Shown here piece after piece: positions 2,993-12,879 of a stretch of 23,748 bases of DNA (position 1 is its first letter; each line of letters begins with the position of its first letter). A program made the translations under genes and the position numbers. The notes beneath the pieces are model-generated. The model was not told where the DNA came from. It saw only the letters and a list, made by a program, of their open reading frames with translations, and made no database searches. The stretch comes from a virus, in the IMG/VR virus record IMGVR_UViG_3300025598_000183, positions 1 to 23,748 of that record, one strand, 5' to 3'.

Positions 2993-4282
2993 TTATCCCA
3001 TCCAGCTGCCCACAGGCATATAGTTTTGTCTTTGGGGTTTTGGCTTGCGAGGCTCGTTTACCATCAACCCAATATATCTAAAGGCATCTGCGCCATGTGA
3101 ATATTGGTCATGAAGTGGCTTCTGACTAAATGCGCCAGTTTCAGGATCAACGTCATAGCGATAATGTCTTAAGCATTGTAAGCCTTCTTCGCAATTTTGC
3201 CTATCAAAATAGCATTTTGCAAATATCGTTCTAGCTGCGTTTATAGAATCCGTTACAGGCACTCGGTCTAGTATTTGCACCTTCCAGCCTGTAGATCGCA
3301 CAATTTCCTCGATAGATTTGCCTGAGCCTAAGTTCTTAGCAGCAGCGTCATGGGGTAGCCATAAGGTGTCATAGACGTAGCCATAGGTCTGCATTTGGGC
3401 TAGATACCAACTAATGGTTTTTTGGTTGTCCTCAATATAGCGTATCACCCTGATTTCCATGCCAATAAACTGCACAAACCAAATCGCAGTCGAGTCGGCC
3501 CACCCAAGGTCGAATATGGCATGAACTGGTTTGATTGGGTCGTAAGGCACTCTAGTAATTCTGCCGTCTAGCTCGGCTATTTCCATCTCTTTACCAAATA
3601 CAGCTCCATCTATTTGGGTTCGGCAGATACCTTCCCAAACGTTGTTATAAGCCTGAATATCCCTATTTTTTAGTGCCTGGCGTTCTAACTCTAGCGTTTC
3701 AGGAAACCAAGGGTTGTCGCTGTAGTTTATCTTTTGGACCACCGAGTTTTCAGGTGGATTGACAATAAACCGTTGATAAGTCTCGTCTGTCTCTAGCTCA
3801 GGGTTGAATGACACCCATATTTCGCTGTTTTCTTTACGAATCGTAGGTATGAGAATGTTCCAACTTTGGGCCGAAACGCTTTGCGCCTCTTCCACCCAAC
3901 AAATATCAATTCCTTCGATACTTTTTACATTATTTGTATTGTTTTTAATACCCACAAAGGTAAACTCTGTGCCGTTTTTACCCACAATAGAGTTCTGCGT
4001 AACGGTGTAATACCAGCCTAGCTCTAGGTTTTCTATTTGATCGCACAATAATTTATGAACCGAGTCTTTAATAGAAGTTTGGAACTCACGTGCGCATAGA
4101 ATACGCAGCTGGCTTCTAAAGCCTTTAATAAGCAAAGCCCTGGCAATATTCCAAGATTTTGATCCGCCTCGCCCTCCGTAGAGTATGCGATAACGGCAGT
4201 TTTTAGGCTTAAATAGTATTCCTAACTTAGTAGGAAAATGCGCCTTAGCAAGAACCTGCTCAAGCCTTTGATCTTGTTCCAT
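2993..4282 (-). CDS. terL: Terminase large subunit (Terminase_3 type)
   Basis: This 429-residue packaging motor cuts concatemeric DNA and pumps it into the procapsid. The N-terminal ATPase shows Walker A GGRGGSKS (residues 36-43), Walker B ending IDICWVEEA (125-133) and the coupling motif SFNPE (158-162). The C-terminal RNase H-like nuclease shows acidic residues in FDLGW (D258), LPHDAA (D312) and SHGADAF (D399). The wording matches the PBSX XtmB/SPP1 gp2 group (Terminase_3 and Terminase_3C) rather than the T7 or lambda types, and the length is normal for it. The start overlaps the small-subunit gene by 23 bases, and the portal follows after 2 bases. This branch of terminases often, though not always, packages by headful; that mode is inference here. 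Confidence 0.95.
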   Translation of the reverse strand: MEQDQRLEQVLAKAHFPTKLGILFKPKNCRYRILYGGRGGSKSWNIARALLIKGFRSQLRILCAREFQTSIKDSVHKLLCDQIENLELGWYYTVTQNSIVGKNGTEFTFVGIKNNTNNVKSIEGIDICWVEEAQSVSAQSWNILIPTIRKENSEIWVSFNPELETDETYQRFIVNPPENSVVQKINYSDNPWFPETLELERQALKNRDIQAYNNVWEGICRTQIDGAVFGKEMEIAELDGRITRVPYDPIKPVHAIFDLGWADSTAIWFVQFIGMEIRVIRYIEDNQKTISWYLAQMQTYGYVYDTLWLPHDAAAKNLGSGKSIEEIVRSTGWKVQILDRVPVTDSINAARTIFAKCYFDRQNCEEGLQCLRHYRYDVDPETGAFSQKPLHDQYSHGADAFRYIGLMVNEPRKPKPQRQNYMPVGSWMG

Positions 4283-4631: not shown

Positions 4632-5840
4632 TTAAAGTTTATCGAACTCTAAGCCTGATTCTATATGGATCGCCTGCTTTCCAGTAAACTCCTGCCATCT
4701 TTTAATAATAACGTCACAATACTTAGGATCAAGCTCCATCAAAGCGGACTTTCTGCCTGTTTTCTCAGCAGCTATTAGGGTAGACCCTGAACCACCGAAT
4801 AAGTCTAGCACCATATCCTGTCCTTTGGTGTTGTTCAAGATTTGATACTCCATAAGCTCTACTGGCTTCATCGTAGGGTGGATATCGTTACGCTTAGGAC
4901 GCTTGCACTCTATAAGGGTGGTTTGCTTACGGTCCGATGCCCATAAATGCCCTGCACCGTCTTTCCAGCCATATAAACAAGGTTCATGCTTCCAATGATA
5001 GTCTTGACGGCCCATAACCATTGTGTCTTTTTGCCATATTAGGCATTGACGAACCTTCCAGCCAGCGTCTTTACACGCACCCCTAAAATTAAAGCCTTCG
5101 GAGTCGGCATGCCATATATAAAATACAGCGCCAGGCTTCATTACAGCGTCTGCAGCTACAAAAGCGTCTCTTAGGAATTGGCGGAATGCTTCGTCTCCCA
5201 TAGAGTCGTTTTGAATGGTTAGCGCATCCTTTGTTTTGCCTTCGTATGCCACGTTATATGGCGGATCGGTAACAAGAATATCGACTAAGCCGTTTGTCAG
5301 CTTTTCTACGCTTTCAATAGAAGTCGAGTCGCCACACATAAGCCGATGGTTGCCAAGACTAAATATATCGCCCAGTTTCGACTTAGGTGTAAGCGGAGCA
5401 TTAGGAACAGCATCTTCATCGGTTAGCCCTTCCGTTGGCTCAATAACGTTCAATAGAGCGTCTAATTCGTCCTTATCAAAGCCTAATAGGTCTAAATCAA
5501 ACTCATCGCCTAATAGCTCTTGTAGTTCTACGGTTAATAGTTCTGTATCCCAGTCGCTATTTAGCGCCAGTTTATTGTCCGCAATGACCAGAGCTTTCTT
5601 TTGAGTCTCTGATAAATGGGCAAGTTCGATAACAGGAACTTTATCCATAGACAACTTGCGAGCAGCAAGCAAACGACCATGACCAGCAATAATCCCATTA
5701 GCCCCATCAACCAAAATGGGATTAGTCCAACCAAACTCTCGGATGCTAGCTGCAATTTGAGCCACCTGTTCATCTGAGTGCTTTCGGCTGTTGTTGATAT
5801 AGGGTATCAACGATTCTATTGAACGCTGTTCTATTTTCAC
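4632..5840 (-). CDS. ParB-domain DNA N6-adenine/N4-cytosine methyltransferase
   Basis: This 402-residue fusion has a ParB/Srx-like N-terminus (residues ~5-95, with SRKHSDEQVAQIAASIREFG and the GIIAGHGRLLAA box). A short acidic linker leads to an N6/N4 DNA methyltransferase domain. Catalytic motif IV is TDPPYN (191-196), HPTMKP sits at 321-326, and the S-adenosylmethionine motif I is LDLFGGSGST (345-354). The order motif IV then motif I is that of the beta class. Such fusions are common in phages and are thought to modify phage DNA against host restriction; the ParB part may help locate DNA. The start is GTG at 5838-5840, inside a GTGA overlap with the upstream small gene, which argues for translational coupling. 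No cognate restriction enzyme is next to it, so it is an orphan methylase. Confidence 0.93.
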   Translation of the reverse strand: MKIEQRSIESLIPYINNSRKHSDEQVAQIAASIREFGWTNPILVDGANGIIAGHGRLLAARKLSMDKVPVIELAHLSETQKKALVIADNKLALNSDWDTELLTVELQELLGDEFDLDLLGFDKDELDALLNVIEPTEGLTDEDAVPNAPLTPKSKLGDIFSLGNHRLMCGDSTSIESVEKLTNGLVDILVTDPPYNVAYEGKTKDALTIQNDSMGDEAFRQFLRDAFVAADAVMKPGAVFYIWHADSEGFNFRGACKDAGWKVRQCLIWQKDTMVMGRQDYHWKHEPCLYGWKDGAGHLWASDRKQTTLIECKRPKRNDIHPTMKPVELMEYQILNNTKGQDMVLDLFGGSGSTLIAAEKTGRKSALMELDPKYCDVIIKRWQEFTGKQAIHIESGLEFDKL

Positions 5841-9640: not shown

Positions 9641-9903
9641 TCCAGTTCCAGCAATTTATCTTCGAGGTCAAAGCCCCAATGCTTTTTAAATCCTTTAGCT
9701 CCAAGCTGGTGAATTGAATCCTTGAAGTGTCTATGATGTCCAGCACAGAGCGGTATTGCTGGCGCTTTGTCTCGCTTGCCTCCAAAACGTCTGATGTGAT
9801 GGATTTCGACTGGCATGTCAGAGTCGCTGAATCCAAGGTGTTTGCATAATACGCAGCCATATCTCGCCAACTTTGCATAATTTTCTTTTTCAGATTTATT
9901 CAT
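9637..9903 (-). CDS. Ref-like HNH nuclease
   Basis: The 88-residue protein shows CVLCKH (a CxxC knuckle), then the metal/catalytic VEIHHIRRFG, and a zinc-completing IPLCAGHHRHF. The family's closing pattern SIHQLGAKGFKKHWGFDLED follows. This layout matches the C-terminal nuclease domain of P1 Ref (RecA-dependent nuclease) and its small phage relatives, an HNH variant. P1 Ref cuts ssDNA within RecA filaments and stimulates recombination; the same role here is inference from family. It overlaps the downstream membrane-protein gene (ATGA) and the upstream gene by one base. Confidence 0.8.
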   Translation of the reverse strand: MNKSEKENYAKLARYGCVLCKHLGFSDSDMPVEIHHIRRFGGKRDKAPAIPLCAGHHRHFKDSIHQLGAKGFKKHWGFDLEDKLLELE

Positions 9904-10343
9904 TAAAAAATTTGTGTTAAATCCACATATTTGAAAAGCTCGACAGGCACATCGTAATAAAACTCATGCTTTTCATTATCCTTCAACTCCACCTGAGGAT
10001 GAGAAAATACTTTACTGCCCTTGATCCAATACGCATGTTTCATGCAATGCGTTAGCGCAAAGAATAATGTATTTTCCACCTCTAGCATGTGCTTTTTGCG
10101 TTCAGGCACATGAATAGTATTAAAAGGGCAATATGGTGTCCAAGAACGAACCTCTACTTCTACAAAGCCCACATGTTTGCCTGCTCGATATATAACTAAA
10201 TCCGTCCCATATATGTCAGGGTTGTCTACAGCATCAACACCCCACATATTGTTTAGCCAAGTCGTAACGGCAGCCCTGGCAGGCGGATCGTATCGATCAT
10301 GCAGCCCTTGATCAAACTTTTTTATTCGCATTTTCGCCAGCAA
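9903..10343 (-). CDS. Putative PD-(D/E)XK-fold protein, 146 residues
   Basis: The core reads NPDIYGTDLVIYRAGKHVGF followed by VEVEVRSW. An acidic residue (D48) comes before a beta strand ending E62-x-E64-x-R66, which resembles the restriction-endonuclease fold with an E-x-E variant of the usual E-x-K. A preceding helix (ARAAVTTWLNNMWG) fits that fold. The C-terminal half is rich in aromatic residues and may bind substrate. I do not recognise a named family, so nuclease activity is a hypothesis. The second Met (MRIKKF) is an alternative start. The upstream small gene overlaps it by 32 bases. Confidence 0.6.
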   Translation of the reverse strand: MLAKMRIKKFDQGLHDRYDPPARAAVTTWLNNMWGVDAVDNPDIYGTDLVIYRAGKHVGFVEVEVRSWTPYCPFNTIHVPERKKHMLEVENTLFFALTHCMKHAYWIKGSKVFSHPQVELKDNEKHEFYYDVPVELFKYVDLTQIF

Positions 10344-11011: not shown

Positions 11012-11241
11012 CGCCAATCTCCCATCCTTCCTCTATTCCCCTTCTTCCACTGTTCCGATACGTCATGTAAGATTCTTGCAAGTCGTGGGCTAAATCCAGG
11101 AGATCGTAAATACTCTCTGAAGCGCTGTAATCCCTGCTCGTTTCTGAATCTAAGAAGCCATCGAACTTCGCACTGGTGACGATATTCTTCGCTGCTTTTG
11201 TAGTCCTTTTCATTTAAATCTCCTTTAAATAAATCGTTCAC
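11008..11241 (-). CDS. Small conserved phage protein, DUF7696-like
   Basis: 77 residues from a GTG start with GGAAG 7 bases upstream, overlapping the end of the cytosine methylase by 17 bases. The phrase YKSSEEYRHQCEVRWLLRFR and the closing SEQWKKGNRGRMGDWR are, from memory, typical of a small family in proteobacterial phages (DUF7696 or similar). This favours this frame over an overlapping 69-codon frame that has a strong AAAGGAG before its ATG at 11211-11213. It is highly charged and helical; function unknown. Confidence 0.72.
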   Translation of the reverse strand: MNDLFKGDLNEKDYKSSEEYRHQCEVRWLLRFRNEQGLQRFREYLRSPGFSPRLARILHDVSEQWKKGNRGRMGDWR

Positions 11242-12112
11242 TTAACAACTTCCATGCTGTTGCTGCACATAAACTTACTTGTCCGTTTCCAATGGCTTTA
11301 AGTCTGTCCACCCTAGCGGCCACCCCATTAGCCACTCTGTCCACGTTGGGTTCAACGCTCCAGAAATTGGGCTCACCGATTGGCTTAAGGATATTTGCTT
11401 GCCTATCTTTACTCTTCTTTGAACGCTCGGATTCGATAAATTTCCTCGATCTCTGTTGTCTGATGCTTGGGGTGTCGGCCACATTTGCACCAATCTTCCC
11501 AACCCCACCGATCCGTCTTTGCCGTTTTGATTTATCTTTCTTGGCATTCCAGTTTTGGTTCTGTAAAATTTGTCCTTCTTCCCAATGATTGCTCCTGTCG
11601 TTCCATCGCTTGAAACAGGAGTTGGTAGCGAGAATCCAAATACGGTCTCTCTTATGGGGAGCGCCCACCTCTCCTGCTGAAAGCACTCCCCATTCCGCAT
11701 CGAACCCCATCGAGGCCAAGTCTGCAAGAACTGTTCCGAGTCCTCTAGAAGTAAGCATTGGGGAATTTTCCACGAATGCGTATTTGGGTCTAACTTCGCC
11801 AATAATTCTCGCCATGTGTTTCCACATTCCACTTCTGTTTCCTTCAATTCCTGCGCCTCTTCCTGCTGCGCTAATGTCCTGGCATGGAAATCCACCAGAT
11901 ACGACATCAACAATTCCTCGCCAAGGCTTTCCGTCAAATGTTTGAACGTCATCCCATATTGGGAAAGTCGGCAAAATTCCGTCATTTTGTCTGGCGCACA
12001 ATACGCTTGCTGGATATGCTTCCCATTCAACTGCACAGACTGTTCGCCATCCAAGCAAATGCCCCCCAAGTATTCCTCCACCAGCGCCTGCGAAAAGAGC
12101 CAACTCATTCAT
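11225..12112 (-). CDS. dcm: C5 cytosine DNA methyltransferase
   Basis: The 295-residue enzyme methylates cytosine at C5. The canonical motifs appear in order: LFAGAGGG (motif I, AdoMet, residues 6-13) and GGFPCQDIS with catalytic C77 (motif IV). FVENSP (motif VI) and APHKRDRIWI (motif VIII, ~151-160) follow. Then comes a variable target-recognition stretch (~165-255) and AIGNGQV (motifs IX-X, 273-279) with CAATAWKLL. Length fits small phage Dcm-like enzymes. It probably protects phage DNA from host restriction; no restriction enzyme is nearby. The start ATG overlaps the DUF1376 stop (ATGA). The variable region is Arg/Lys/Ser-rich and unlike its surroundings, perhaps because the same DNA is also an open +1 frame of 277 codons (see that entry). 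Confidence 0.93.
   Translation of the reverse strand: MNELALFAGAGGGILGGHLLGWRTVCAVEWEAYPASVLCARQNDGILPTFPIWDDVQTFDGKPWRGIVDVVSGGFPCQDISAAGRGAGIEGNRSGMWKHMARIIGEVRPKYAFVENSPMLTSRGLGTVLADLASMGFDAEWGVLSAGEVGAPHKRDRIWILATNSCFKRWNDRSNHWEEGQILQNQNWNAKKDKSKRQRRIGGVGKIGANVADTPSIRQQRSRKFIESERSKKSKDRQANILKPIGEPNFWSVEPNVDRVANGVAARVDRLKAIGNGQVSLCAATAWKLLSERFI
11275..12108 (-). CDS. Candidate overprinted ORF inside the cytosine methylase gene
   Basis: A 277-codon frame runs in the +1 phase of dcm for 94% of its length without a stop. It begins at an ATG four bases after the dcm start, with its own AAGG 8 bases upstream. The translation contains MSYLVDFHARTLAQ, GNTWRELLAKLDPNTHSWK and QTWPRWGSMRNGECF. Later come two PTP-type units (SLPTPVSSDGTTG and MWPTPQASDNRDRGN), then ALNPTWTEWLMGWPLGWTDL. 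I recall similar wording in phage and metagenome protein entries, where the pieces lie opposite conserved methylase motifs. They may be real dual coding or repeated misannotation of the alternative frame of conserved DNA. It is also in the same phase as the upstream DUF1376 gene, separated by one TGA. No known catalytic motif; function unknown. Confidence 0.45.
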   Translation of the reverse strand: MSWLFSQALVEEYLGGICLDGEQSVQLNGKHIQQAYCAPDKMTEFCRLSQYGMTFKHLTESLGEELLMSYLVDFHARTLAQQEEAQELKETEVECGNTWRELLAKLDPNTHSWKIPQCLLLEDSEQFLQTWPRWGSMRNGECFQQERWALPIRETVFGFSLPTPVSSDGTTGAIIGKKDKFYRTKTGMPRKINQNGKDGSVGLGRLVQMWPTPQASDNRDRGNLSNPSVQRRVKIGKQISLSQSVSPISGALNPTWTEWLMGWPLGWTDLKPLETDK

Positions 12113-12124
12113 TTCACCTTCCTT
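12106..12124 (-). promoter_or_regulatory. Tandem ribosome sites and tandem ATGs
   Basis: On the minus strand AAGGAAGG (12117-12124) precedes ATGAATGAG. The first AAGGA is 7 bases from the dcm ATG (12110-12112), and the second AAGG is 8 bases from the +1-frame ATG (12106-12108). The TGA between them ends the DUF1376 gene. Both starts therefore have well-spaced Shine-Dalgarno sequences. Confidence 0.5.
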
Positions 12125-12879
12125 TTTTCTCGTTGCGCTACGATAAAGTTGCGCATTTCGTAATAAGAATTAAACCTAGCCTTTGATGGATCGCCACACT
12201 CGGCCCTATACGCTGCCTCGATTTGGGCATCCGTTCCTAAAGGTAATTCTTTTGTTTTGGTAATAGGGTCGATGTTCTCTACCCAATCTGCTTTAAATCC
12301 TCGCCAGCCTCTTTGACAGCAAAGTTCCATTACAGCCTCTAAGGTCATCTTGGCTTTTGCTGCCTCTTTTGCTAAACCTTTTAAAGCGGTTTCAGTTAAA
12401 GGCGCTTTGTGGCTTTTACGCAACTTCAAGAAATCCTGAAAAACCAAATCATTAACCCCTTCAGGGGTCTTAGTATTTATTTGGTTCTTGGTTCTTGGTT
12501 CATGGTTCTTGGTTGGCATTGGGGGGTGTTTAGGGGGGCTATCGCTAGGCAATAGGGTGGGTATTTCTTTATTCCACCGTTTAGCTGCACCCTTGCGTCC
12601 ACCCTCTGCCATTGCCTTATAGCGAGAAAGCTCTTCTGTGGCTCTCTTATTGGTCCAGGCTACCTTACCCTCATCTAGCTCAAAAAACTCGCCCAAAACC
12701 GCTAAAACAGCCTCCTGTTTCGATTTTGTCCGCCTAGCAAGAGTAGGTATGTCGTTTATCAAAGGTTTCTCGGTCAAATAGTAAAGGTCAATCAATCGTC
12801 TATAGGCTAAATCTTCTTCATTCGTTAGATGGGCTGTGTGGCTTATATAGTCACCTATGTGAAATGGATAAAAGTTCAT
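12109..12879 (-). CDS. DUF1376 (YdaU-like) replication-region protein
   Basis: The 256-residue protein starts MNFYPFHIGDYISHTAHLTN and continues EEDLAYRRLIDLYYLTEKPL, the hallmark of DUF1376/YdaU (residues 1-~95). A Pro/Lys-rich linker (~105-140) follows. The C-terminal domain reads HKAPLTETALKGLAKEAAKA and CQRGWRGFKADWVENI, which in other phages completes primosome-like or DnaT-like replication proteins. YdaU-type proteins are found in prophage replication regions and may act as initiators or helicase loaders; the exact role is uncertain. It lies between the repressor-like gene and dcm. The stop overlaps the dcm start. Confidence 0.85.
   Translation of the reverse strand: MNFYPFHIGDYISHTAHLTNEEDLAYRRLIDLYYLTEKPLINDIPTLARRTKSKQEAVLAVLGEFFELDEGKVAWTNKRATEELSRYKAMAEGGRKGAAKRWNKEIPTLLPSDSPPKHPPMPTKNHEPRTKNQINTKTPEGVNDLVFQDFLKLRKSHKAPLTETALKGLAKEAAKAKMTLEAVMELCCQRGWRGFKADWVENIDPITKTKELPLGTDAQIEAAYRAECGDPSKARFNSYYEMRNFIVAQREKRKVK

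Follow-up and report, generated by a model that had tools for sequence, protein, structure and literature searches.

The window (the whole stretch of 23,748 nt of viral DNA that was analysed, an IMG/VR virus record) carries two overlapping open reading frames at a cytosine methylase locus, both on the minus strand, as are all features described here. The longer frame, alpha (11225..12112, 295 aa), is the catalytic ORF of a C5-cytosine methyltransferase, with motifs I–VIII and X and matches to PF00145 and PHROG 363. The second frame, beta (11275..12108, 277 aa), is an overprinted ORF in the +1 frame with an ATG start, for which we propose the role of a subunit bearing the TRD and motif IX; it matches PHROG 1008. 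Beta lies inside alpha, covers 94% of it and starts 4 nt downstream of the alpha start, which bears out an earlier note on this DNA that had reported a stop-free run of 277 codons across that share of the methylase. In this register, positions 1, 2 and 3 of a beta codon are positions 2, 3 and 1 of an alpha codon.

The two starts form the sequence ATGAATG (12106..12112), with the alpha ATG at 12112-12110 and the beta ATG at 12108-12106. A Shine-Dalgarno-like sequence, AAGGAAGG (12117..12124), stands at a spacing of 4 from alpha and 8 from beta. Beta had been credited with an ATG and a ribosome site of its own; the ATG is its own and the ribosome site is common to both frames. The DUF1376 replication gene upstream (12109..12879) ends in a TGA that overlaps the alpha ATG (ATGA) and lies 1 nt before the beta ATG. 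The DUF1376 stop and both start codons are therefore packed within AAATGAATG, behind a single AAGGAAGG, an arrangement that suggests coupled initiation.

The alpha protein is readily classified, matching PF00145 with an E-value of 5e-31 and 108.6 bits against a curated cut-off of 22. Its single chain holds GFPCQ with the catalytic cysteine (motif IV, 11879..11893, read from the translation, with GGFPC invariant in the alignment), VENSP (motif VI), HKRDR within HKRDRIWI (motif VIII, 11633..11656, from translation and alignment) and GNGQV within RLKAIGNGQV (motif X, 11276..11305, where the substitution pattern is alpha-like). Motif VIII is the final conserved alpha motif ahead of the switch in coding frame. 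In an AF2 model the catalytic domain extends to residue 192, residues 196-277 are disordered (pLDDT below 50) and a confident helix occupies residues 280-291 (pLDDT about 90), just C-terminal of motif X. The model superimposes on M.HhaI with Z 19.2 and rmsd 2.8 over 186 aligned residues, and the alpha C-terminus matches PHROG 32758. A single-chain enzyme usually has the TRD and motif IX in this same chain; in alpha, the corresponding stretch is beta-like in its substitutions and disordered in the model. Alpha thus appears to be without a small domain, and the conserved part of beta appears to be that domain.

The beta protein begins with MSWLFSQAL (12082..12108), a peptide that is kept in relatives where the codons differ. 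A conserved WP.WGSMRNG element, identified from alignments, follows on the DNA that separates alpha motif VI from motif VIII (11686..11718). Beyond it lies a TRD-like region of LPTPVSSD and WPTPQASDNRDRGNLSNP modules (11359..11628), over which the alpha frame is unconstrained and predicted to be disordered; these modules are shared with Paenibacillus polymyxa and Megaera. WPTPxASD-type modules are present in the protein, and at its end stands LNPTWTEWLMGWPLGW (11308..11355), whose pattern we take to be that of C5-methylase motif IX (compare LHPRECARVMGYPDSY in M.HhaI). Two phrases of beta had been placed opposite methylase motifs by the earlier note: LNPTWTEWLMGWPLGWTDLK, assigned to motifs IX-X, does lie just ahead of motif X, whereas MSYLVDFHARTLAQ, assigned to motifs VI-VIII, is found opposite alpha residues about 69-83, at motif IV (GFPCQ).

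Beta matches PHROG 1008 over residues 60-269 (E 1.2e-28), as do 127 of 127 aligned beta relatives. None of these 127 betas has a credible Pfam domain, NCBIfam likewise gave nothing for beta, and a sequence and profile search of the PDB with beta returned no credible solved-structure relative and no recognition of a TRD or motif IX. The AF2 model of beta is of low confidence (pLDDT 57.8), with LNPTWTEWLMGWPLGW predicted as a helix and then a loop; it has no PDB fold match at Z 2 or more, and a model this poor does not show a match to the M.HhaI small domain. Beta therefore appears to be the carrier of the TRD and motif IX on the basis of motif pattern, position and redistribution among relatives.

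The openness of the beta frame was compared with that of other genes and of shuffled sequences. In the window's other genes the +1 frame contains 7-37 stops; in alpha it contains three, all of them outside the 277-codon run. When synonymous codons of the window gene were shuffled, the mean was 6.2 stops and an open frame arose in 0 of 300 trials. Relatives were drawn from viral contigs, one set with beta as query and another with alpha as query, the latter not being selected for beta. In all 68 distinct loci of the alpha-query set the +1 frame is free of stops over nearly its whole length, so the frequent stops in close homologues that would mark a spurious frame do not occur; the +2 frame of the same loci has ∼20 stops. 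Shuffles that keep both the alpha protein and its codon usage, applied to 134 genes (57 clusters below 80% nucleotide identity), gave a mean of 5.9 stops and an open frame in 0.07%. A spurious frame arising from base composition or from the conserved methylase was rejected by these synonymous shuffles together with the analysis of codon positions given below. Other C5-methylases picked as +1-frame controls have the same dual design and are unusable as negative controls. We also considered, and rejected, one relative (L167) as a case of broken alpha; its alpha stop merely ends the gene a few codons before the usual end.

Substitution patterns point to selection on beta. By a simplified OLGenie-like count, which uses single differences with identical flanks, dNN/dNS was 0.146 (bootstrap 0.124-0.170) and dSN/dSS was 0.325 over 116 pairs, both indicating constraint on beta. 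The position of the substitutions within codons changes along the gene. Over alpha nt 0-510 (motifs I–VIII) they fall mostly at alpha position 3. Over alpha nt 510-735 the rates at alpha positions 1, 2 and 3 are 0.298, 0.038 and 0.018, respectively, so that over the TRD stretch the rate at alpha position 1 exceeds that at position 3 by a factor of 16, which is the pattern of the beta frame. Substitutions are still beta-like at alpha nt 750-810, where beta encodes motif IX, and are alpha-like at alpha nt 810-870, where motif X lies. Synonymous sites are therefore constrained, as the ratios and the codon-position rates both indicate. Both frames are selected as protein sequence, and the methylase motifs are divided between them. 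The alpha variable region had been described as oddly rich in Arg, Lys and Ser; it is, because this stretch evolves in the beta frame.

Alpha is nonetheless kept open where beta dominates. In 207 loci with intact alpha there were no alpha stops in the beta-dominated stretch, compared with 529 expected from shuffles that preserve beta, loci with interrupted alpha being excluded from this reverse test by construction. Through the TRD stretch, where alpha is predicted to be disordered, the alpha frame is kept open to allow motif X to be reached. Alpha stops alongside an open beta occur in seven loci (L123, L198, L209, L214, L218, L228 and L235), not all of these stops being in the beta-dominated stretch; the loci may be decaying copies or sequencing errors. 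In the N-terminal half of alpha, divergence at fourfold sites is 0.19, compared with 0.40 in flanking genes (183 non-independent pairs), to which recent gene exchange could contribute. Entropy at the fourfold sites of this half gave only a modest signal: the first ∼70 residues of beta are under modest constraint (1.39, compared with 1.71 by shuffle). These residues are absent or interrupted in some relatives.

At the start, an NTGAATG arrangement is present in 172 of 218 relatives, and GGAGG stands 4 nt ahead of alpha in 40 loci. Among the 172 NTGAATG relatives, alpha Asn2 is always AAT (background 45%), which is needed for the beta ATG. Alpha Glu3 is always GAG in these relatives (background 34%), Ala5 is GCT in 164 of them (background 17%) and Phe7 is TTC in 169 (background 43%). 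Where the arrangement is lacking, the beta start precedes that of alpha by 5 nt or by tens of nt. Such displaced betas have MSWL.S.AL-like N-termini written in other codons (Ser2 changes from AGT to TCA and Ser6 from TCG to AGC), and alpha Glu3 is GAA at such loci. The retention of MSWL.S.AL with different codons shows that selection acts on the beta peptide rather than on the DNA.

A TRD module from the window is identical to its counterpart on a plasmid of P. polymyxa (Bacillota) at 26 of 33 residues in the beta frame but at only 13 of 33 in the alpha frame; most of the nucleotide differences fall on the third positions of beta codons. For a second module, shared with a plasmid of Candidatus Megaera (Rickettsiales), the figures are 22 of 38 in the beta frame and 8 of 38 in the alpha frame. 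The motif IX pattern was seen in 212 of 263 loci, some of them redundant, and in 211 of these 212 it is in the beta frame. Among the same partly redundant 263 loci, 236 have motif X in the alpha frame, and one, from Paraburkholderia adhaesiva (L255), has it in the beta frame.

This last locus is one of three in which the motifs are redistributed. Its alpha stops a few residues after motif VIII, and its beta, of 499 aa with a start upstream of alpha, has several WPTP modules and motifs IX and X in one frame; the beta-frame motif X matches PHROG 32758, as the alpha C-terminus does in the window. The mycobacteriophage Wildflower (L005) has two annotated genes with a similar division, its beta having IX and X. 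On a Candidatus Megaera plasmid (L261:1296-2318), motifs IX and X are both in the alpha frame and only TRD modules are in beta. In each of these rearranged cases the two frames together contain every motif a single time, which fits one enzyme made as two pieces. As a separate observation, in Mycobacterium phage Seabastian (L171, 1375-2134) and near position 3250 of another locus (L252) a frame shift swaps alpha and beta between ORFs. A swap of this type is unlikely to be a sequencing error because a like split is annotated in several mycobacteriophage genomes.

Taken as a whole, the locus very probably encodes one two-subunit C5-methyltransferase in overlapping frames, with alpha as the catalytic subunit and beta providing the TRD and motif IX. 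Alpha would fold as a large catalytic domain with motifs I–VIII, followed by a disordered linker and then motif X, and beta would provide the TRD and motif IX, which in a normal C5-methylase make up the ‘small domain’. The two proteins would initiate 4 nt apart behind one Shine-Dalgarno sequence, coupled to the DUF1376 stop, and would assemble into an active enzyme whose most likely task is to modify the phage DNA and so protect it from host restriction. We infer that beta is translated, that a heterodimer assembles, that beta sets its specificity and that the enzyme has an anti-restriction role. The proposal that beta is a real gene, overprinted on the methylase and inseparable from it, is thus supported by the open frames and the constraint on beta. 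The further idea that beta is a modulator or anti-restriction partner finds no support, since beta appears to carry the enzyme's own TRD and motif IX and is therefore better read as a second methyltransferase subunit.

The division of motifs could also be produced by a programmed frameshift, in which translation starts at alpha and slips by +1 near motif VIII to give one fused chain, beta being merely its downstream part. The TRD and motif IX do follow in the +1 frame right after motif VIII, and in the P. adhaesiva and Wildflower loci, where alpha stops soon after VIII and the TRD, IX and X are in the beta frame, a +1 slip would yield a complete single chain. A slip leaves unexplained, however, the open beta frame across the entire N-terminal half, the conservation of the beta ATG and of MSWL.S.AL even on different DNA and the openness of alpha through the TRD to motif X; the fused chain in the window would, moreover, end without motif X. 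We therefore regard a frameshift as improbable. Equally small is the chance that beta stands outside the active enzyme, as a distinct overprinted protein that regulates or inhibits the methylase or a host restriction system. Selection on beta as a protein would suit such a role, as would its want of a Pfam domain and of a confident fold, but neither a TRD nor motif IX can be recognised in alpha, which would alone be an incomplete enzyme, and relatives differ in which frame holds motifs IX and X. That the second frame is no gene, being held open by the conserved methylase and codon bias, is hardly credible and already refuted, short of some codon-periodic constraint at the DNA level: invariant alpha residues account for part of the similarity and beta is unknown to Pfam and NCBIfam, but such a reading does not account for the rarity of open frames in shuffles preserving alpha and its codon usage, the beta-frame periodicity of TRD substitutions, the fixed beta start codons or the low fourfold divergence of the alpha N-terminal half relative to flanking genes.

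The two-subunit organization that we propose has partial parallels in known enzymes. In M.EcoHK31I the gene of the small subunit is nested, in a different frame, within that of the large subunit, and its beta is shorter than the beta here, which covers 94% of alpha and starts only 4 nt away. The large chain of M.EcoHK31I, which recognizes YGGCCR (Lee, Kam and Shaw 1995), has motifs I–VIII, X and the predicted TRD, with IX on the small chain (PMC3404938). Compared by description only, the window locus is similar in having I–VIII and X on alpha and motif IX, as judged by its pattern, on beta, but differs in that its TRD is coded in the beta frame rather than predicted in the large subunit. The proposed placement of the TRD in beta and the nearly complete overlap set the window locus apart from M.EcoHK31I. 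In M.AquI (CYCGRG), motifs I–VIII are on one chain and the distal variable region, IX and X are on the other (PMC3404938). The window resembles M.AquI in having the catalytic motifs I–VIII on one chain and the variable region and IX on the other; however, motif X is on alpha in the window and on the small subunit in M.AquI. The P. adhaesiva and Wildflower loci have the division of M.AquI, with IX and X on beta, but in overlapping frames. With the single-chain enzymes M.HhaI, M.HaeIII and Dcm, alpha shares the catalytic fold but, unlike them, has the TRD and motif IX outside its chain.

A second protein in another frame within a phage methylase gene is also found in ShiLan, where an insertion in the methylase hides an HNH endonuclease in an alternate frame (PMC11855218). 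There, in contrast to the window, the insertion is mobile and the protein is a homing-type nuclease rather than a part of the enzyme. PHROG 363 (alpha) and PHROG 1008 (beta) are separate families, both labelled DNA methyltransferase, and their listing does not mention that they overlap at one locus. We found no prior description of dual-coded phage methylases in the literature, although subscription journals could hold one.

Alpha and beta occur together in 80 bacterial-genome loci, including Acinetobacter, Pseudomonas, Bradyrhizobium, Verrucomicrobia and Phycisphaerae, and the pair is also present in plasmids and phages; it extends from proteobacterial prophages to other phyla. A methylase of an Escherichia coli PT62 prophage (L264:53-1039), from a second, divergent family with the same design, has a +1 frame open for 307 codons with GWPTP and LNPAHSRWLMGLP, its beta frame matching PHROG 1008 and its alpha PHROG 363. 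Relatives of this gene are found in 195 phage records, including N15 gp58. In E. coli PCP07014 (L265:1512-2273), a copy with stops in both frames is apparently decaying, and its alpha is a RefSeq pseudogene. The annotated frame varies by record, being alpha in some, beta in others and both in a few; in three phage records (L168, L173 and L174) beta is annotated and the catalytic alpha frame is not.

Many phage and prophage C5-methyltransferases that are annotated as single genes are probably two-protein enzymes with a +1-overprinted recognition subunit, in which motifs IX and X are mobile between frames and two full-length proteins are made from the same DNA across several bacterial phyla. If so, annotation has overlooked or mislabelled the recognition subunit in a widespread class of phage and prophage methylases, and a methylase cloned as the annotated frame after recoding of its codons would be inactive or incomplete. 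The locus also offers an unusually clear natural example of long overprinting on one strand, where the share of each frame can be followed from position to position.

Elsewhere in the window, positions 4632-5840 encode an N4/N6 DNA methyltransferase with a ParB N-terminal domain, a second methylase of this phage. A frame at 9637-9903 matches a RecA-dependent (Ref-like) nuclease, and the adjoining frame at 9903-10343 has a weak match to a PDDEXK endonuclease (E 0.1).
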